A stretch of DNA of 64,000 nucleotides from an uncultured Dokdonia sp. (GTDB taxonomy: Bacteria > Bacteroidota > Bacteroidia > Flavobacteriales > Flavobacteriaceae). The stretch covers positions 124,001 to 188,000 of the forward strand of contig NZ_CANLNH010000001.1 of the NCBI RefSeq assembly GCF_947492535.1, written 5' to 3'. The notes beneath the pieces are model-generated. The model saw nothing but the letters and a program-made list of their open reading frames with translations, was not told where the DNA came from and made no database searches. Shown one piece after another: positions 28,832 to 63,310 of the stretch (position 1 is the stretch's first letter; each line of letters opens with the position of its first letter). The translations under genes were made by a program, and so were the position numbers.

Positions 28832-28836
28832 GGTTT

Positions 28837-28860
28837 TATACGCTTTCGCGAAAGCGTATA
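28837..28860. repeat. 24-bp perfect palindrome after the patatin gene
   Basis: Same sequence as the copy between clpP and clpX (TATA-CGCTTTCGCGAAAGCG-TATA), located between convergent genes. Confidence 0.9.
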
Positions 28861-28947
28861 CAGAATATAGACCGCTTTACTAGTAGAATATAGGTTTTAA
28901 CCATACGAGCCTTTTGCCTCTTCTCTATATTCTTTTCTCTGGAAAAA

Positions 28948-38680: not shown

Positions 38681-38787
38681 AAAATTAAGTTGTGCTCGTT
38701 TTTAAAGCAATGTTCATCAATTCTTGTCTATATTATTTGAAATTTAGATTTCGTCGTTCGTACTTCTAACTACTATTTTATAAAATG

Positions 38788-38864
38788 AGTAACGGAAAGT
38801 TTACTTCTTTTTGTAAAGGAAAAGGTACAAAAAGCTGTAAACAATCACATTCAGTTCGGCTAGC
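38788..38864. repeat. Structured element copy 1 (AGTAACGGAAA...TTCGGCTAGC)
   Basis: Conserved ends enclose a hairpin: GTTTAC-TT-CTTTTTGTA pairs with TACAAAAAG-CT-GTAAAC (38799-38842), with a symmetric 2-base internal loop. It could be a structured RNA of the minus-strand transcript or a mobile hairpin element. Confidence 0.65.
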
Positions 38865-38935
38865 TATATCTATGATTTTAGACTTCGTACTTCCAACTTC
38901 TAACCTCGTACTTTGATTACCATCCTTGTTAAATC

Positions 38936-39015
38936 AGTAACGGAAAGTTTTCGAAAATTTAAACAGAAAAAAGTTTTTAAATTTTCAAAAACTACCACCG
39001 CCATATTCGGCTAGC
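38936..39015. repeat. Structured element copy 2 (AGTAACGGAAA...TTCGGCTAGC)
   Basis: Ends match copy 1, but the internal stem differs in sequence (38947-38992: GTTTTCGAAAATTTAAAC against GTTTTTAAATTTTCAAAAAC) and still pairs. The remainder of 38681-39068 holds diverged copies of a CGTACTTCxAACTTC-type motif at 38759, 38886 and 39044. No gene is seen there. Confidence 0.65.
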
Positions 39016-39068
39016 ATATTATAGTAATAGATATTTCGTCATTCGTACTTCAAACTTCGTGCTTCCAA

Positions 39069-45363: not shown

Positions 45364-45449
45364 AAAAGAAAATAGAACATAGATTATTCGCGTGCGCTCT
45401 CTTATAGATAATTGCGACTCTAATGATAGATGTTAGAAAATACAGCTCC

Positions 45450-45540
45450 TTCCCTTTTCAGGGGAAGGTGGATTTTTATTTACTCATGAAAGTAAATGAA
45501 AAGACGGAAGGGGTCTCCTTTTCACCATACGAGCAAAAGA
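45450..45540. repeat. Pyrimidine/purine-rich interspersed repeat downstream of alaS
   Basis: CTCCTTCCCTTTTCAGGGGAAGG-type half and GACGGAAGGGGTCTCC half flank an AT-rich stretch. It resembles the CTCCCTCTGGGAGAG repeats at 51491 and 52591 and the hydroxylase insertion at 48926. No coding sequence is seen in 45364-45580. Confidence 0.5.
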
Positions 45541-45580
45541 TTTATCTTTCAATATCTATTCTTAATTTAAAATATTACTA

Positions 45581-52981: not shown

Positions 52982-53417
52982 GAAGAAATCGAAGCTGAAA
53001 TCGAAATCTAAATTGAAAAACAAATGAGCAAATATAATTTGGATAATCGATTTGAAGATTTTGCAGCTTCAGTAATAGTTCTTTTTGATAAGCAACCAGT
53101 ATCTTTTGCAGCAGATTATTTAGCTAAACAATTGATTCGGTCGGCTTGTTCTTCGGCTCTCAATTTTGGAGAGTTTGAGGGAGCAAGATCAAATAGGGAC
53201 AAAGCAAATAAACTCAGAATAGCCTTAAAGGAACTTCGTGAGTCTCTTAGGAATTTAAATATTCAGTTAAAAAGTGAAATTTTGAAGTCTGAAAATATAG
53301 AGAGTATAAGGAAAGAAAATGATGAGCTTATTAGGATTTTGGTTACGCTTCTAAAAAAATATGAATGATTAATAATGGATTCGATTTCGTTTTCGATTTC
53401 GTTTTCGATTTCAAAAA
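52982..53417. mobile_element. S23-gene element 1: inverted arms around a four-helix-bundle gene
   Basis: The left arm (52982-53020; GAAATCGAAGCTGAAATCGA then AATCTAAATTGAAAAA) is an imperfect inverted copy of the right arm (53379-53417; repeated TTCGATTTCGTTT, ending TTTCAAAAA). Between them is only the S23 gene. It may be a non-autonomous element; no transposase is present and target-site duplications were not identified. Confidence 0.55.
53024..53368 (+). CDS. Four-helix-bundle (S23, rRNA-intervening-sequence) protein, copy 1
   Basis: The 114-residue helical protein fits the S23 family encoded in 23S rRNA intervening sequences. It shows LAKQLIRSACSSALNFGEFEGARSNRDKANKLRIALKELRESLRNL near residues 29-75, and a last helix. 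The family is structurally related to Avd of diversity-generating retroelements and is suspected to bind nucleic acid. Here it lies between paaB and paaC and not in rRNA, bounded by inverted repeats. It has no expected link to phenylacetate degradation. Confidence 0.85.
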   Translation: MSKYNLDNRFEDFAASVIVLFDKQPVSFAADYLAKQLIRSACSSALNFGEFEGARSNRDKANKLRIALKELRESLRNLNIQLKSEILKSENIESIRKENDELIRILVTLLKKYE

Positions 53418-54173
53418 ATGAACAATAATTTATACAATTACATCCTAGGTATCGCAGACAACAGTCTTATCCTTGGACAGCGTCTAGGAGAATTATGTGG
53501 TCACGGACCAAGCCTAGAGACTGATATTGCAGGAACAAATATCTCATTGGATTTATTTGGTCAGGTACGTAGTTATTTTCAATATGCTGCTCAAGTAAGT
53601 GGCGATGATGCAGCTACAGAAGATACAATTGCTTTCTTGCGATTGGAGCGTCACTATAAAAATGTACTCTTAGTAGAACAGCCTAATACAGATTTTGGAT
53701 ATGTGATCGTACGTCAATTTCTTTTTGATGCCTATCATTTATTATTCCTAAAAGAATTAGAAAAAAGTACGGATGAAACACTCGCTGCAATAGCTAAAAA
53801 ATCTGTAAAAGAAGTCAGCTATCACTGGCGCTTCTCTTCCGATTGGATTAGAAGATTGGGCGATGGAACGCAAGAAAGTCATGAGCGTGTACAAGAAGCA
53901 GTAACCGATTTATGGATGTATACCGATGAATTATTTCATCAAACAGAAGCAGACCAAGCAATGATTTCAGAAGGAATTGGCGTAGATACGTCAAAACTGA
54001 AAGAGGTCTATTACAAAATGGTTTCAGATGTTTTAGAAGAAGCGACTTTAGAAGTTCCTGAAGGTAAATACTTCCATAAAGGAGGAAAGCAAGGAATTCA
54101 TTCAGAACATATGGGATATATCCTTTCTGATATGCAATATATGCAACGTACCTATCCTAATATGGAATGGTAG
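53418..54173 (+). CDS. paaC: Phenylacetyl-CoA epoxidase structural subunit
   Basis: PaaC is the non-catalytic, ferritin-like partner of PaaA. The 251-residue protein shows DNSLILGQRLGELCGHGPSLETDIAGTNISLDLFGQ near 14-49 and an RLGDGTQESHERVQ block near 146-159. The right arm of the S23 element abuts its ATG, so its ribosome-binding region is made of repeat sequence. Normal length. Confidence 0.96.
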   Translation: MNNNLYNYILGIADNSLILGQRLGELCGHGPSLETDIAGTNISLDLFGQVRSYFQYAAQVSGDDAATEDTIAFLRLERHYKNVLLVEQPNTDFGYVIVRQFLFDAYHLLFLKELEKSTDETLAAIAKKSVKEVSYHWRFSSDWIRRLGDGTQESHERVQEAVTDLWMYTDELFHQTEADQAMISEGIGVDTSKLKEVYYKMVSDVLEEATLEVPEGKYFHKGGKQGIHSEHMGYILSDMQYMQRTYPNMEW

Positions 54174-54180
54174 AATGATG

Positions 54181-54263
54181 AACGATTGTGGATTTCTGAT
54201 ATAAGATTGTAGAATTAAAAAGTTCAAAAATCAAAAATCAAAAATCGCTAATCTCCAATCAAA
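54181..54263. repeat. Apparent empty S23-element arms before paaD
   Basis: ACGATTGTGGATT...AGATTG (left-arm type, compare 57483-57530) is directly joined to CAAAAATCAAAAATCAAAAATC...AATCTCCAATC. The outer parts GATTGTGGATT and AATCTCCAATC are inverted repeats (9 of 11). No gene lies between. Confidence 0.55.
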
Positions 54264-54764
54264 ATGACTTTAGAAACCCAACATATAGAACCACATCTTA
54301 CTTCCATTTTGGAGTCTGTTTCAGATCCAGAGATACCTGTGCTTTCTATTATGGATATGGGAGTTGTAAGAGAAGCTGTCGAAAGAGATGGAATTGTTCA
54401 GGTAAAAATAACCCCTACCTATTCGGGATGTCCAGCTATGGATGTCATTGGGGATGATATTGTATCCGCTTTCGCGAAAGCGAATAAAAAAGCAAAAATT
54501 ACATTGGTTTTAAGTCCCGCATGGACAACAGACTGGATCACTGATCGAGGAAGAAAAGCACTAGAGGAATACGGAATTGCAGCCCCATTATCTCCTGAAG
54601 CAGATAAAGAAGCATTATTAGGGAACAAGAAAATTGTAAAATGTACCAATTGTGGGTCGACAGAAACACACTTGGTCAGTCAGTTTGGCTCTACAGCATG
54701 TAAAGCACTGTTTAAATGTGATGTATGTCAAGAACCTTTTGATTACTTTAAATGCTTGAAATAG
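54264..54764 (+). CDS. paaD: PaaD, epoxidase iron-sulfur maturation factor
   Basis: PaaD (also named PaaJ-type MIP18 family) helps mature the iron centres of the epoxidase. The 166-residue protein has the MIP18 start SVSDPEIPVLSIMDMGVVREA and SGCPAMDVIGDDIVSAF with the conserved Cys. A C-terminal zinc ribbon follows (KCTNCGSTETH, and FKCDVCQEPFDYFKCLK). The palindrome core lies inside the gene at 54467-54482 and encodes SAFAKAN. The next gene begins 7 bp after the stop. Confidence 0.93.
   Translation: MTLETQHIEPHLTSILESVSDPEIPVLSIMDMGVVREAVERDGIVQVKITPTYSGCPAMDVIGDDIVSAFAKANKKAKITLVLSPAWTTDWITDRGRKALEEYGIAAPLSPEADKEALLGNKKIVKCTNCGSTETHLVSQFGSTACKALFKCDVCQEPFDYFKCLK
54467..54482. repeat. Palindrome copy inside paaD
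   Basis: CGCTTTCGCGAAAGCG, read as AFAKA, immediately after the GDDIVS motif. Confidence 0.85.
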
Positions 54765-54771
54765 GATACAT

Positions 54772-56640
54772 ATGAAAAATATATCTGTAACACTACTTTT
54801 TATTGTCCTTACTTGTTTTTCGGTAAGTGCTTCAAGAGTGGTTGTTTCTACAGATATTGGATTTGATGCTAATGATAGTACTTCTTTTTTAGAAATAGCA
54901 TTTACAAATACGACTGCAGATACGATTGTTATAGATAATGTAGGAATGGATTGGCGTACAGGCCCTCTTGATATAAATCGTGATGATGTGACGATTATTT
55001 TGGAAAAAGGGGTGGTAATACGAGCACTCCCTAATGTATTTGGAGAATTTGATTCCTTGATACGTATACGAGATAGAAGTAATATCACCATTTTAGGATA
55101 TGGAGCTACATTAATAATGAATAAGCAAGAATATATAGATCTTGCAGATAGTGAGTTTAGACATGGTATCGATTTGAACTCGGCTATAAGTATCTTGATA
55201 GAAGGGTTGACTATACGAGACTCTGGAGGAGATGGTATTAGTATAAGTAAAAGCTTTGCAGCAGATAGCCCTCAGAATTATTCAGAAAATATTAGAATTA
55301 AAAATTGTGTTTCTACTAATAATTACAGGCAAGGATTAGCAATCATATCGGCTAAAGATGTTGAGATTTTGTATTGTGAGTTTTCAGATACTAGCGGAAC
55401 ATTACCAGAAGACGGGATTGATATAGAGCCTTTTGAACCAGATCAACGTATAGAAGATGTGCTTATTAAAGGGTGTAGAATTCTTAATAATAATGGAAAT
55501 GCAATTCAGGTAGCTATGGAATTTATGGACGACTCGTCTCAAGATATTTCTATAGTAGTAGAAGATACATACATGTCAGGAAATCATGATCCTTCTAATA
55601 CATTTTCATTTGCAGAATTAAATATAGATGACAATGGAGGAAATGGTGTAGATGGCTTTGTTACTTTTTCTAACTGTTATGTTGATAGTAGTGAGTGGAC
55701 AGCTGTATATATATCAAAAACAATAGATAGTTATCAGGCAAATTTTGAAAATTGTGTTTTTAAAGATGTTTCAAATGATCCTATAGATTTAAATAATCCC
55801 ATTTTCTTTGAAGTAACAGATTATGAAAATCCAGTAGCGAGGTTTGGAGGGGCTACATTTACAAATTGTACAATTATTTATGATGAGGATATTCCATTTT
55901 TAAATTTAGTTGAAAATATGCCTACGTCTCCAGGTTTAGGAGATGTTACTGGAAATTTTTATGTGATTAATCCGAATACAGTCTCTTTTGAAACAGGAAT
56001 CGATCCTGAAAATACAGCAGTTACATTTGACTCTTTTAATAGTTTTCCAGAGACAGAAGTAACTATTACTGCTTCGCAATTGCAGTATACAGAAGGTGTT
56101 GATTCCTCTTTTCGATTTGATCTCCAAAGGGAGAGCGATCTATTAGTGCCAGTAGCAGTAAACCTTTCTTTAGAAGGAACAACAACATTTGGTGAAGATT
56201 ATGATAGACAACCTGGTTTTGTTGTATTTGAAGAAGGAGAGGATCAGGTAGAAGAAACTATTGACATTATCCTTGATCAAGAAGAAGAGACTATAGAAAC
56301 ATTAGAGGTTGAAATTTCTCCAAATGATTGTTATGTAATAGGTTCTGAAATGTCCTTGTCATTAGATTTGATAGATGCGACATTAAGTGTTGATGTTTTT
56401 GATATACGTTCTTTAATAGCATACCCTAATCCTGTAAGTGATACGTTAACACTTGAATTACCCGAAGGGAATTATCAAATAATTTTATATTCGATTTTAG
56501 GAAGTAAGCTAAAAGAATTTTCTCTTTTAGAGAATAATACTCAGGTAATAATGAATGACTACCCTACAGGGACTTATGTTTTGAAAATAATTGATAATAC
56601 ATATCAAAAACAAAAAAGTATACAACTTATAAAGAAATAA
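54772..56640 (+). CDS. Secreted beta-helix protein with type 9 sorting domain
   Basis: The 622-residue protein has a signal peptide (MKNISVTLLFIVLTCFSVSA). It carries pectin-lyase-like parallel beta-helix repeats at about 70-330 (SNITILGYGATLIM, ISILIEGLTIRDSGGDGISISKS, EDVLIKGCRILNNNGNAIQV) and a beta-sandwich near 425-535 (GTTTFGEDYDRQPGFVVFEEGEDQ, Calx-beta-like). The C-terminal T9SS signal comprises LIAYPNPVSDTLTLELPEG, YPTGTYVLKI and SIQLIKK. It should be exported through the outer membrane and bound or released at the surface; polysaccharide binding is likely. It is wedged between paaD and paaG with only 7 bp to paaD. Confidence 0.88.
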   Translation: MKNISVTLLFIVLTCFSVSASRVVVSTDIGFDANDSTSFLEIAFTNTTADTIVIDNVGMDWRTGPLDINRDDVTIILEKGVVIRALPNVFGEFDSLIRIRDRSNITILGYGATLIMNKQEYIDLADSEFRHGIDLNSAISILIEGLTIRDSGGDGISISKSFAADSPQNYSENIRIKNCVSTNNYRQGLAIISAKDVEILYCEFSDTSGTLPEDGIDIEPFEPDQRIEDVLIKGCRILNNNGNAIQVAMEFMDDSSQDISIVVEDTYMSGNHDPSNTFSFAELNIDDNGGNGVDGFVTFSNCYVDSSEWTAVYISKTIDSYQANFENCVFKDVSNDPIDLNNPIFFEVTDYENPVARFGGATFTNCTIIYDEDIPFLNLVENMPTSPGLGDVTGNFYVINPNTVSFETGIDPENTAVTFDSFNSFPETEVTITASQLQYTEGVDSSFRFDLQRESDLLVPVAVNLSLEGTTTFGEDYDRQPGFVVFEEGEDQVEETIDIILDQEEETIETLEVEISPNDCYVIGSEMSLSLDLIDATLSVDVFDIRSLIAYPNPVSDTLTLELPEGNYQIILYSILGSKLKEFSLLENNTQVIMNDYPTGTYVLKIIDNTYQKQKSIQLIKK

Positions 56641-56678
56641 GTTTCATAAAAAATAGAAGCATTTAATTAAAAACAATA

Positions 56679-56692
56679 CCTGCTTAAGCAGG
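56679..56692 (+). repeat. Hairpin just before paaG start codon
   Basis: CCTGC-TTAA-GCAGG ends 7 bases before the ATG at 56700, the same distance as the paaA and paaB leader hairpins but with a different sequence. Confidence 0.65.
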
Positions 56693-56699
56693 CGTTATT

Positions 56700-57482
56700 A
56701 TGAGTCAATCAATACAAAAAGAAATACATAACGGAGTAGCAACACTTACGCTAAATCGCCCAGAGGTTTTTAATAGTTTTAACCGTGAGATGGCATTAGT
56801 TTTTCAAAATGAATTAGATGCTTGTGCAAATGATGCCTCTGTAAGAGTTATTGTAATTACTGGAAGCGGAAAAGCGTTTTGTGCTGGTCAAGATTTAAAA
56901 GAAGTGACAACTCCTGATTTAAACCCAGGATTCAAGAAAATATTAGAAGAACATTACAATCCTATTATCACAAGAATACGTGCGATTAACAAACCAATCA
57001 TAGCAGCAGTAAATGGTGTAGCAGCAGGAGCAGGAGCAAACATTGCATTGGCTTGTGATATTGTGATTGCGCATGAAAAAGTAAGTTTTATACAAGCATT
57101 TAGTAAGATAGGTTTAGTGCCAGATAGTGCTGGCACATTCTTTTTGCCTAGATTGATAGGCTTTGGAAAAGCGAGCGCATTAATGATGTTGGGCGATAAA
57201 GTATCTGCTACAGACGCTGAGAAGATGGGGATGATTTATAAAGTAACACCATTAGACGATTTTCAGATAGAAATAGAGAAGGTTGCTAGTACACTTGCGC
57301 AAATGCCAACAAAAGCATTAGGTATGACGAAGCAACTACTCAACAATTCGATGAGTAATACATTAGAACAACAACTTGCGTTAGAATCAAAATTACAAAT
57401 AGAAGCAGCAAGTAGTGAAGATTATGCAGAAGGAGTAGCCGCTTTTGTTGAAAAAAGAAAACCAAATTTTAAAGGACAATAG
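56700..57482 (+). CDS. paaG: Ring epoxide isomerase (crotonase family)
   Basis: PaaG converts the ring epoxide of phenylacetyl-CoA into the oxepin form. The 260-residue crotonase-fold enzyme shows LNRPEVFNSFNREM near 18-31, the oxyanion-hole GSGKAFCAGQDLKEV near 57-71, and IAAVNGVAAGAGANIALACDIVIA near 100-123. The Asp in GLVPDSAGTFFLP near 138-150 is the family-typical catalytic residue. It lies between the secreted beta-helix gene and an S23-type gene. Confidence 0.93.
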   Translation: MSQSIQKEIHNGVATLTLNRPEVFNSFNREMALVFQNELDACANDASVRVIVITGSGKAFCAGQDLKEVTTPDLNPGFKKILEEHYNPIITRIRAINKPIIAAVNGVAAGAGANIALACDIVIAHEKVSFIQAFSKIGLVPDSAGTFFLPRLIGFGKASALMMLGDKVSATDAEKMGMIYKVTPLDDFQIEIEKVASTLAQMPTKALGMTKQLLNNSMSNTLEQQLALESKLQIEAASSEDYAEGVAAFVEKRKPNFKGQ

Positions 57483-57950
57483 TGATTAACGATTGGAGAT
57501 TATAGATTGCTGATTTTTGAATTAAAAAATATGAAGCCTAATCAATTAGAAGAACGACTTATTAAATTTGCTGTAGATATAATTTTACTATGTAAAACAA
57601 TGGATAAATCTTTTGCATCTGAGCATTTGACGAAACAATTAATTCGTTCTTCTACTTCAGTGGCTTTAAATTATGGTGAAGCAAGAAGTGGAGAGAGTAC
57701 AAAAGACTTTCTACATAAAATGAAAATCTCTTTAAAAGAATTACGAGAATCGTATGTGAATATGAAAATTCAAAAAGGAGCCAGCCTTATAAGAGATGTT
57801 ATCGAGTTGGATAGACTTCTAGACAAGAATAATCAACTAATTTCCATCTTTGTTTCAAGTATTAAAACGGCGTCAGCCAAATAGTTTCTCCATATGAGTG
57901 AGCAAAATCAAAAATCAAAAATCAAAAATCAAAAATTTTCAATCAAAACT
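57483..57950. mobile_element. S23-gene element 2: inverted arms around a second four-helix-bundle gene
   Basis: The left arm (57483-57530; GATTAACGATTGGAGATTAT, then AGATTGCTGATTTTTGAATT) mirrors the AATCxxCAATC and (CAAAAATC)n motifs of the right arm at 57903-57950. The right arm extends into the first codons of paaH. Only the S23 gene lies between. Confidence 0.5.
57531..57884 (+). CDS. Four-helix-bundle (S23) protein, copy 2
   Basis: The 117-residue protein is a diverged relative of the first copy: SEHLTKQLIRSSTSVALNYGEARSGESTKDFLHKMKISLKELRESYVNMKI matches the first copy's AKQLIRSACSSALNFGEFEGARSNRDKANKLRIALKELRES. The ATG at 57531 fits the family start; an earlier frame start would lie in the repeat arm. 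It is embedded between paaG and paaH, 10 bp before paaH. Confidence 0.85.
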   Translation: MKPNQLEERLIKFAVDIILLCKTMDKSFASEHLTKQLIRSSTSVALNYGEARSGESTKDFLHKMKISLKELRESYVNMKIQKGASLIRDVIELDRLLDKNNQLISIFVSSIKTASAK

Positions 57951-63257: not shown

Positions 63258-63310
63258 GAATTTTTCGATTTCGATTTCAGTTTCGATTTCAGTTTCAATT
63301 TCAAAAACGA
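63258..63310. repeat. Solo TTCGATTTCAGT-type arm before paaZ
   Basis: Repeats of TTTCGATTTCAG, ending TTTCAATTTCAAAAACG, match the right arm of S23 element 1 (53379-53417), but there is no S23 gene here. Confidence 0.55.

Follow-up and report, generated by a model that had tools for sequence, protein, structure and literature searches.

The window, a stretch of 64,000 nucleotides from an uncultured Dokdonia sp., carries two S23-type genes in its paa operon, each framed by a pair of inverted arms made of short repeated words, together with an arm-only hairpin and a solo arm. The names paaB, paaC, paaG, paaH and paaZ are taken from an earlier, sequence-only reading of this DNA and fit the translations by eye, with a Pfam check for PaaD only. 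The features are, in positions of the window:

52985-53018, + strand: left arm of element 1, GAAATCGAA-type units with a period nearer 6 than 7, directly 3' of paaB
53024-53368, + strand: S23 gene 1 (114 aa; PF05635/TIGR02436), between paaB and paaC
53380-53412, - strand: right arm of element 1, directly 5' of paaC
54174-54263, no strand given: arm-only hairpin without an S23 gene, GATTnnn heptads, between paaC and paaD
57483-57523, + strand: left arm of element 2, GATT words with three variable letters between them
57531-57884, + strand: S23 gene 2 (117 aa; PF05635/TIGR02436), between paaG and paaH
57905-57947, - strand: right arm of element 2, lying in the paaH reading frame and extending it at the N terminus
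63258-63307, - strand: solo arm of the element-1 type, 5' of paaZ

The assignment of both genes to the S23 family by the sequence-only reading agrees with the profile searches, in which genes 1 and 2 scored 46.6 and 50.1 bits against PF05635 (cut-off 33.8) and 69.5 and 77.3 bits against TIGR02436 (cut-off 24), respectively. The product of gene 2 (57531-57884), the one of the two proteins that was modelled, is predicted to form a four-helix bundle (pLDDT 94.4), the fold already proposed for it. In Foldseek searches this monomer model resembled 2rld (TM 0.78-0.85) and 2gsc (TM 0.78-0.84); Avd and the ribonucleoprotein of diversity-generating retroelements (8ub7/8ub8, 4dwl) were retrieved at TM 0.76-0.78 with weak E-values. 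A transposase match in the PDB sequence search (8iaz, E 0.77) was weak and was judged to be due to chance. S23 of Xanthomonas has been called a homopentamer (PMC4990558), as it is in the title of the 2gsc paper as given in a reference list, and no function is known for family members according to PMC4990558. With dN/dS values of 0 to 0.19 in 23 chosen pairs, S23 is under purifying selection.

Eleven S23 loci are present in the window's genome (99.99% complete) and 85 across the genus, the latter number being obtained from 87 matches after removal of two second halves of broken genes (L063, L070). S23 matches were also found in 44 of 60 genomes sampled from the phylum of the window, with 29 new loci among the matches listed, and in 225 of 295 genomes sampled from the class of the genome G077. 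Two further sets comprised plasmids (18 of 34 plasmid records examined, all cyanobacterial, L161 and L326 being near-duplicates) and metagenome-assembled genomes (MAGs; 29 of 30 loci analysed with one partial gene left out, the 7 loci of G077 counted separately). The S23 loci lay between codirectional genes in 159 of 180 cases, versus 32 of 55 window ORFs; within the genus, neighbours were codirectional at 72 of 85 loci under a stricter count and at 76 of 81 when the limits were widened and 600 nt were demanded on either side. Left arms were G-rich on the sense strand (43 versus 6, n = 52).

The inverted arms described earlier around each S23 gene were confirmed. In element 1, whose right-arm unit copies have a spacing of 12, positions 52985-53017 and 53380-53412 are 82% complementary, and in element 2 positions 57491-57523 and 57912-57944 are 79% complementary. 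Folded as RNA, both elements were more stable than shuffled sequences (z -3.76 and -2.62); the arms of element 2 paired, and those of element 1 paired fully in the centroid structure and in their outer part only in the minimum-energy structure. Neither the window nor 19 chosen S23 loci gave a match to Rfam. Each of the two S23 ORFs is enclosed by complementary arms, as in the intervening sequence (IVS) of rRNA genes, where the S23 ORF lies in the loop of an inverted-arm stem and tandem heptamers of variable number precede its start codon (PMC4990558). Unlike the rRNA IVS, which is located in a 23S (or 16S) rRNA gene, both elements lie between protein genes of an operon, and elements of this kind occur in many copies per genome, vary in their words and carry an S23 gene under purifying selection. 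The reading that we favour, tentatively and with rather less than even confidence, is that they are the operon counterpart of the rRNA IVS and that their heptad arrays are bound, probably in RNA form, by a ring of their own S23.

In most cases the pairing of the two arms is specific to their locus. In the window's own genome the true left/right pairing ranked top in its row or column at 8 of the 11 S23 loci (L001, L005 and L007 failed), and across the genus the inverted-repeat score exceeded the 99th percentile of 1680 random placements within the same loci at 55 of 84 loci (84 of the 85 tested). When arms were mispaired between loci, 60 of 83 genus loci fell in the top 5% (L001 and L048, near contig ends, left out of the 85), and the mispaired 95th percentile was exceeded by 20 of 28 phylum loci (28 of the 29 new ones tested), 46 of 76 named loci (76 of 80 tested) and 10 of 18 plasmid loci; at most loci, judged from these scores, arms pair better with their own partner than across loci. 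Among the 118 loci with an inverted-repeat score of at least 24, 93 beat heptad-shuffled arms at p<0.05, so that complementarity exceeds what shared words provide. Some S23 loci have no paired arms, which counts against the favoured reading: the arrays of L320 are direct rather than inverted, and none were seen by eye at L159 and L331.

Such pairing in register beyond the shared words, the closing of element 2 (and of element 1 in the centroid) by its arms in the RNA folds, and the cutting of the rRNA S23 element by RNase III within its stem (PMC4990558) would all suit a plain intervening sequence of mRNA, in which the arms are a stem cut from the operon transcript by RNase III, S23 does not bind them, and replication slippage and copying between the two arms produce the 7-nt period as a side effect. 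We regard this as unlikely, since lag 7 is the highest among the lags printed in each set (see below) although a stem has no need of such a period, and since the 23 chosen pairs point to purifying selection on S23. The right arm of element 2 is, moreover, translated as the start of PaaH in three species, and cutting there would remove that start, which also counts against the favoured reading.

Taken as a set, the arms show a 7-nt period with harmonics, with element 1 of the window nearer to 6. Identity at lag 7 (left/right arms versus control) was.400/.407 versus.257 in the genus,.348/.382 versus.259 in the phylum,.412/.420 versus.269 for the 80 named loci,.449/.429 versus.263 for 18 cyanobacterial plasmid loci and.388/.388 versus.256 for the 22 loci of 7 MAGs whose titles name other phyla; of the lags printed, lag 7 had the highest self-identity in every set tested. 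When the controls were taken from the S23 loci themselves, no more than 23 of 191 left arms and 22 of 191 right arms exceeded the 99th percentile, a point against our reading; this threshold was too strict because the control windows held arrays themselves, and the final periodicity tests were based on shuffles. A strict per-arm threshold was passed by 27 of 85 left and 36 of 85 right arms, and among these the period was 7 in 15 and 19 and 6 or 8 in 9 and 13, respectively, which counts against recognition of a heptad array as we propose it. Array length was broadly distributed; despite its mode of 5, a sharp preference for five heptads was dropped in view of the wide spread and the under-detection of 4-unit arrays. 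Tandem 7-nt units together with hairpins in spacers, by which cyanobacterial STRRs are recognised, were found in the set as a whole and in the 54174-54263 hairpin.

Arm words were named from the flanks listed and from the mispairing test. Among S23 pairs from different sites, 14 of the 26 with 60-80% protein identity shared arms across loci, as did 23 of the 2732 below 40%, with the reservation, which weakens our case, that the 14 pairs stem from about five groups of related loci. At one and the same site, pairs with 50-60% S23 identity (n = 40) gave a cross-arm score of 14.7, equal to that of the different-site background, and an own-arm score of 25.8; one site supplies 28 of the 40 pairs, which again counts against the favoured reading. 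By these scores, diverged S23s at the same site have different words in both arms, for which repeated insertion could be an alternative source. The overall protein/arm correlation was small (Mantel 0.052, p 0.014; 79 S23s, short proteins and contig-end loci left out), a further point against our reading. S23 subfamilies have different words, and a readable link between protein and repeat may therefore exist; that the word differs between elements hints that S23 reads such words.

Heptad arrays without S23 are common, and this counts against the favoured reading. It would be expected if STRR-like heptad hairpins arose on their own, through slippage and palindrome correction, and S23 genes merely landed in them: 21 of 98 other spacers near the loci were heptad-periodic, a word search of the paper on TAACTGA repeats (PMC4679880) did not find S23, and the STRR passage of PMC2670836 does not name it. 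We consider such hitchhiking improbable, to much the same degree as the plain mRNA stem, because S23 flanks were enriched in heptad periodicity (91 of 170 versus 21 of 98, p 2e-7), closely related S23s from separate sites frequently share a word (14 of 26 pairs), and S23 with paired heptad arms occurs in Bacteroidota, in Cyanobacteriota and in MAGs titled as other phyla. As given in that STRR passage, STRRs resemble the arms here in their mostly 7-nt units and their capacity to form hairpins (PMC2670836). The G-rich heptamers of Xanthomonas and Nostoc are placed mostly between aligned genes, with the G-rich strand after stop codons and the complement before start codons (PMC4692102), and a word search of that paper did not find S23; compared with both STRRs and G-rich heptamers, the arrays here frame an S23 gene. 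TAACTGA repeats likewise form heptamer arrays close to start codons in spacers, Bacteroidetes and Cyanobacteria being among the groups that have them, and a post-transcriptional binder of unknown identity has been proposed for them (PMC4679880); they consist of one word in direct repeats, unlike the inverted arms of varied words described here. Our literature search found no paper linking S23 to heptamer repeats, except for the heptamers before one rRNA S23 gene.

The sequence-only reading had suggested that S23 elements come and go between the genes of an operon and leave arm-only remnants, and comparisons at paaG-paaH and paaC-paaD bear this out. At paaG-paaH, 11 genomes sorted by eye comprised 4 with S23, 2 with a right arm without S23, 2 with clean junctions and 3 with other sequence; more generally, paa sites in relatives were empty, held an S23 with other words, or held arm-only remnants. 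The 54174-54263 hairpin (fold z -2.98) does join both arm types of element 2 without a gene, as had been noticed; it is an arm-only hairpin rather than the empty site that it had been taken for, and the relative G014 has a decayed S23 gene there. The solo arm before paaZ is also present. The view of the arms as ends of one element family was given up: the common terminal sequence by which copies of a transposon or MITE are recognised was absent, and the arms are arrays of a short word that varies by element. In a tree of 79 S23s, grouping was largely by the 32 sites, with many deep forks unresolved, and S23 is inherited mostly in place. Target-site duplications, which had been proposed as a check, gave no clear signal among 43 elements (mean longest direct repeat 4.70 versus 4.55 when mispaired); direct repeats of at least 7 nt numbered 6 versus 1.95 expected, but this excess is weak and falls short of a duplication signal.

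Arrays of the element-2 word are dispersed in the window's own genome, and arm-only hairpins occur where relatives have S23. CAAATC arrays were present in 3 of the 4 genomes that have the cognate S23 and in 1 of the 14 that lack it (p 0.019); for GATT the association gave p 0.21, and TAGC showed no link. GATT arrays occurred in G011, G013, G010 and G002 with no GATT-armed S23 among the flanks listed, some of these genomes being incomplete. A strict coupling of solo arrays to the cognate S23 of the same genome fits one of the three words only and was rejected; the link is weak, which counts against the favoured reading. In REPIN-RAYT systems a master gene is flanked by repeats and accompanied by many gene-less copies. 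The dispersed arrays, the hairpins and the CAAATC distribution could be explained in the same way, with the S23 element as master and hairpins and solo arrays as non-autonomous copies, for whose spread S23 would rely on replication functions of the host. We think this quite improbable: S23 is not known to have nuclease or transposase activity or, unlike the RAYT, to be a transposase, the repeats here are word arrays and not one sequence family, no target-site duplication was found in the 43 elements, and the occurrence of GATT and TAGC arrays does not follow that of their S23.

A retro-type mechanism had also been conceived, on the ground that S23 is related to Avd, and was not supported. Avd of diversity-generating retroelements is a four-helix bundle of the fold predicted for S23 and is found in a ribonucleoprotein (8ub7/8ub8, 4dwl), and an S23 acting like Avd with a partner reverse transcriptase elsewhere in the genome would suit the RVT_1 matches in 7 of 18 genus genomes, including the S23-rich G003 (1 match, 13 S23) and G014 (2 matches, 12 S23). 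The RVT_1 profile, however, had no match in the window's own nearly complete genome with its 11 S23 loci, unlike Avd systems, nor in G002 and G010 (8 S23 each), and G004 has 6 matches yet 3 S23; this reading is disfavoured and seems to us very improbable.

In the favoured reading, S23 as reader of its own arms, the element is a compact two-part unit in which two inverted arrays of one short word, usually of 7-nt period, flank an S23 gene. It inhabits mostly the spacers of codirectional operon genes as the mRNA counterpart of the S23-bearing 23S rRNA IVS. S23 would assemble into a five-fold ring, as in the family, with one word per subunit, and the ring would bind its cognate arm words, most likely in RNA, in a TRAP-like reading of spaced triplets. 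TRAP, the trp RNA-binding attenuation protein, is a ring protein that reads regularly spaced short RNA words; it serves as an analogy only, its fold and spacing being unrelated to those of S23. The two arms also pair across the S23 gene, which is thereby placed in a loop closed by a long stem. By binding at the arms, 5' of the S23 start codon and of the next gene, S23 would regulate itself and keep the insertion tolerable to the operon. In this reading elements are inherited in place for long periods, with an occasional move to another spacer, and their decay leaves arm-only hairpins and solo arms.

The anatomy described here gives the widespread S23 family a concrete, testable candidate substrate, namely its own heptad arms. 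A wider and more doubtful possibility, which we hold with less confidence than the favoured reading itself, is that the S23 superfamily is a large set of word-reading ring proteins, each subfamily with its own degenerate 7-nt word, that heptamer repeats found in cyanobacteria, Bacteroidota, Xanthomonas and Beggiatoaceae are targets or relics of elements of this kind, and that rRNA IVSs are rare ribosomal landings. The anatomy would also offer a candidate protein partner to STRRs and other heptamer repeats like them, to which no known function is ascribed, the rRNA intervening sequence would be one habitat of a broader element, and two old puzzles, rRNA intervening sequences and cyanobacterial heptamer repeats, may be tied together.

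Both S23 genes that the sequence-only reading had placed inside the paa operon of the window (G000:C1:124001-188000, in the 4.86 Mb draft genome G000) were recovered together with the inverted arms bounding them. The names of the paa genes, except PaaD, come from a first reading of the sequence and were judged by translations alone. The features are as follows.

53024-53368: S23 gene 1 (element 1), between paaB and paaC, matching PF05635 and TIGR02436
54174-54263: gene-less hairpin between paaC and paaD with arms of the element 2 kind (RNA fold z -2.98)
57531-57884: S23 gene 2 (element 2), between paaG and paaH, matching PF05635 and TIGR02436
63258-63307: single arm upstream of a paaZ-type gene

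The last of these had been described as a solo arm and was found as such. The hairpin had been read as an empty site: the two paired arm types without a gene are indeed present, at 54174-54263, and fold as a hairpin. In predicted RNA folds the arms of element 2 close a stem whose loop contains the S23 gene (z -3.76), and those of element 1, whose unit spacing of 12 is a doubled 6, are fully paired around the gene in the centroid structure (z -2.62), with only the outer stem part paired in the minimum-energy structure. Between paaD and paaG the operon also contains a gene (54772-56640) whose predicted product is a right-handed beta-helix protein carrying a secretion sorting domain at its C-terminus. 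GCTTTCGCGAAAGC palindromes occur within genes and spacers of the window (54468, 58804 and 63227) and adjoin several S23 elements of the genus.

Orthologous paa operons, the comparison proposed in the earlier reading, vary between relatives in S23 presence and in arms. Site contents were sorted by eye.

Contents of three paa sites in G000 and other genomes of the genus
paaG-paaH (11 genomes): S23 with GATT arms, G000, G017, G014; S23 with GAATATCGAA-type arms, G001; right arm but no S23, G016, G009; clean junction, G006, G010; other palindromic repeats, G002, G013; unrelated spacer, G003
paaB-paaC (9 genomes with sequence at the site): S23, G000, G010; arm-only hairpins, G017, G016, G001; other spacers, the remaining four
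paaC-paaD (11 genomes): GATT hairpin, G000, G017, G013, G011; hairpin with a different word, G016, G001, G009; decayed S23 gene, G014; insertion absent, G002; other spacers, G010, G003

In G000, G017 and G014 translation of PaaH runs through the right arm of element 2, giving an N-terminal extension that makes the protein 13-15 residues longer than from the start used in four further genomes examined (G001, G016, G006 and G010).

Taken as a set, the arms are built of short words with a period of 7 nt. Self-identity of the genus arms at lag 7 was.400 (left) and.407 (right) vs.257 for the controls, and lags 14, 21 and 28 also gave peaks; the lag-7 peak recurred in 29 phylum loci, 80 named loci, 18 cyanobacterial plasmid loci and 22 loci of seven MAGs titled Thiobacillus, Desulfosarcina, SAR324, Omnitrophota, Chloroflexota, Alphaproteobacteria and Lambdaproteobacteria, titles that can be wrong. 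The Limnohabitans title of G077, which holds locus L175, looks wrong, since its class is common to genomes of the window's own family (identical places G037/G149 and G041/G185). A strict per-arm threshold was passed by 27/85 left and 36/85 right genus arms, with period 7 in 15 and 19 and period 6 or 8 in 9 and 13, respectively. Typical words are GATTnnn, TAGCnnn, CAAATCn, AGTGnnn and GGGAGTA. The shuffle threshold for 7-nt arrays was exceeded by 183 of 382 arms, 139 of which contain 4-7 units, most often 5.

Pairing of the arms is locus-specific. Left and right flanks of the same locus scored 29.6 on average, left flanks set against right flanks from other loci 16.7 (83 genus loci), and own-flank pairing fell in the top 5% for 60 of the 83. 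A score above 21 was reached by 55/84 real genus loci vs about 1% of 1680 placements drawn at random within those loci. RNA duplex energies agree less sharply, falling in the lowest 5% of the mispaired-arm distribution in 43/85 genus, 7/28 phylum and 26/77 named loci. Among the 118 loci scoring at least 24, to which this test was confined, 93 beat shuffles of heptad order in the right flank (p<0.05); because such shuffling weakens pairing, the arms are inverted repeats and more than two arrays of one word. Paired arms are missing from some plasmid S23 loci: L320 carries direct arrays, and no arrays were seen by eye at L159 and L331. The arms might act as a stem alone, a model that leaves the 7-nt period unexplained.

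Arm word and S23 protein are loosely coupled. Arms were common across loci in 14 of 26 different-site pairs with 60-80% S23 identity (about five groups of related loci), 7.7% of 52 pairs at 50-60%, 3.4% of 146 at 40-50% and 23 of 2732 below 40%, with a small Mantel correlation overall (0.052, p 0.014). Both arms differ in their word between S23 elements at one orthologous site: same-site pairs with 50-60% S23 identity (n=40, 28 from a single site) had a cross-arm score of 14.7, no different from the background for different sites (14.7), and an own-arm score of 25.8. Different words at an orthologous site may reflect independent re-insertion there. A tree built from 79 S23 proteins of the genus places most of the 32 sites in separate groups and shows some moves (L002, for example, groups with L042 from another site); support is good for 39 of 75 inner branches but not for the deep forks.

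Heptad arrays also occur away from S23. The four-unit pattern of the element 2 word gave 48 overlapping matches in the window's genome vs 5 for the reversed pattern, a harsh control because it is itself a heptad and common in some genomes (24 matches in G003, 23 in G013); the three-unit pattern occurs at some 20 places. G011 has 69 matches, and no GATT arms were seen among its six S23 loci. Heptad periodicity marked 91/170 flanks of genus S23 loci vs 21/98 nearby spacers (p 2e-7), and one of three words tested across 18 genomes tracks its cognate S23. Thus S23 is enriched among heptad arrays and does not explain all present ones. S23 might simply ride along with such arrays, a model that does not account for the shared words. 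On a 5.7-kb contig of the window's genome, tRNA-Ile and tRNA-Ala genes, in the order typical of rRNA operon spacers, enclose a GATT array (L319, 762-1081). GATT-array units are also repeated six times in series, 164-219 nt apart, in one spacer (L308; G000:C5:88765-89681). Heptad-like arrays without S23 lie in the window at 38681-39068, by eye like the arm word of the G002 and G010 S23 elements, at 45364-45580 and at 28832-28947, the last of which did not differ significantly from shuffles (p 0.12).

S23 loci stood between two same-strand genes in 159 of 180 testable cases (76/81 genus, 19/28 phylum and 64/71 named; 72/85 in a stricter first count of the genus), compared with 32/55 window ORFs having same-strand neighbours on both sides. 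On the sense strand left arms are G-rich (43 vs 6, n=52). The dN/dS of S23 was 0 to 0.19 in 23 close pairs, hand-chosen and imprecise where dS exceeds 1, as in several. The window's genome has 11 S23 loci; genus genomes have 0-13 matches, at least one in 16/18 and 87 in total, two of which, second halves of broken genes, were left out of the 85 loci with flanks. Matches were present in 44/60 genomes of the phylum and 225/295 drawn from the class of G077. Broken copies include L009 of the window's genome (1501-1794, in-frame stop codon), L034, L071 and L073b. Cyanobacterial plasmid S23 genes (L320, L323, L163) are flanked by cas6 and cas4 in two hosts; the other has cas10 and a cmr3-family gene as neighbours.

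The predicted monomer encoded at 57531-57884 matches the S23 structures 2rld and 2gsc, the latter from Xanthomonas campestris, and resembles Avd and the Avd-reverse transcriptase ribonucleoprotein (TM 0.76-0.78) with weak E-values of 0.5-0.6; passages of PMC10053308 likewise liken PF05635 to Avd. No RVT_1 match was found in the window's genome. In the portions consulted, PMC4990558 describes Xanthomonas S23 as a homopentamer, an intervening sequence of 23S rRNA that RNase III cleaves, tandem heptamers of variable number upstream of the S23 start within it, and its function and origin as unclear. Sections of other articles describe TAACTGA heptamer arrays (PMC4679880), G-rich heptamers between aligned genes of Xanthomonas campestris and Nostoc (PMC4692102), cyanobacterial STRRs, usually 7-bp, hairpin-capable and of function given as unknown (PMC2670836), and a four helix bundle protein listed adjoining a guanylate kinase gene (PMC5524665). 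Word searches for S23 in PMC4679880 and PMC4692102 gave no hit, and we recognised no report of a connection between S23 genes and heptad arms within operons in a search mostly outside subscription literature.

We propose that S23 forms a ring that would recognise the heptad words in its own arms, most likely as RNA. Such a putative ring would fit the heptad period and the pairing of the arms, the words shared between loci, the sense-strand bias, the selection acting on S23 and the fold common with a ribonucleoprotein subunit. The S23 element would then correspond, in operons, to the intervening sequence of rRNA.
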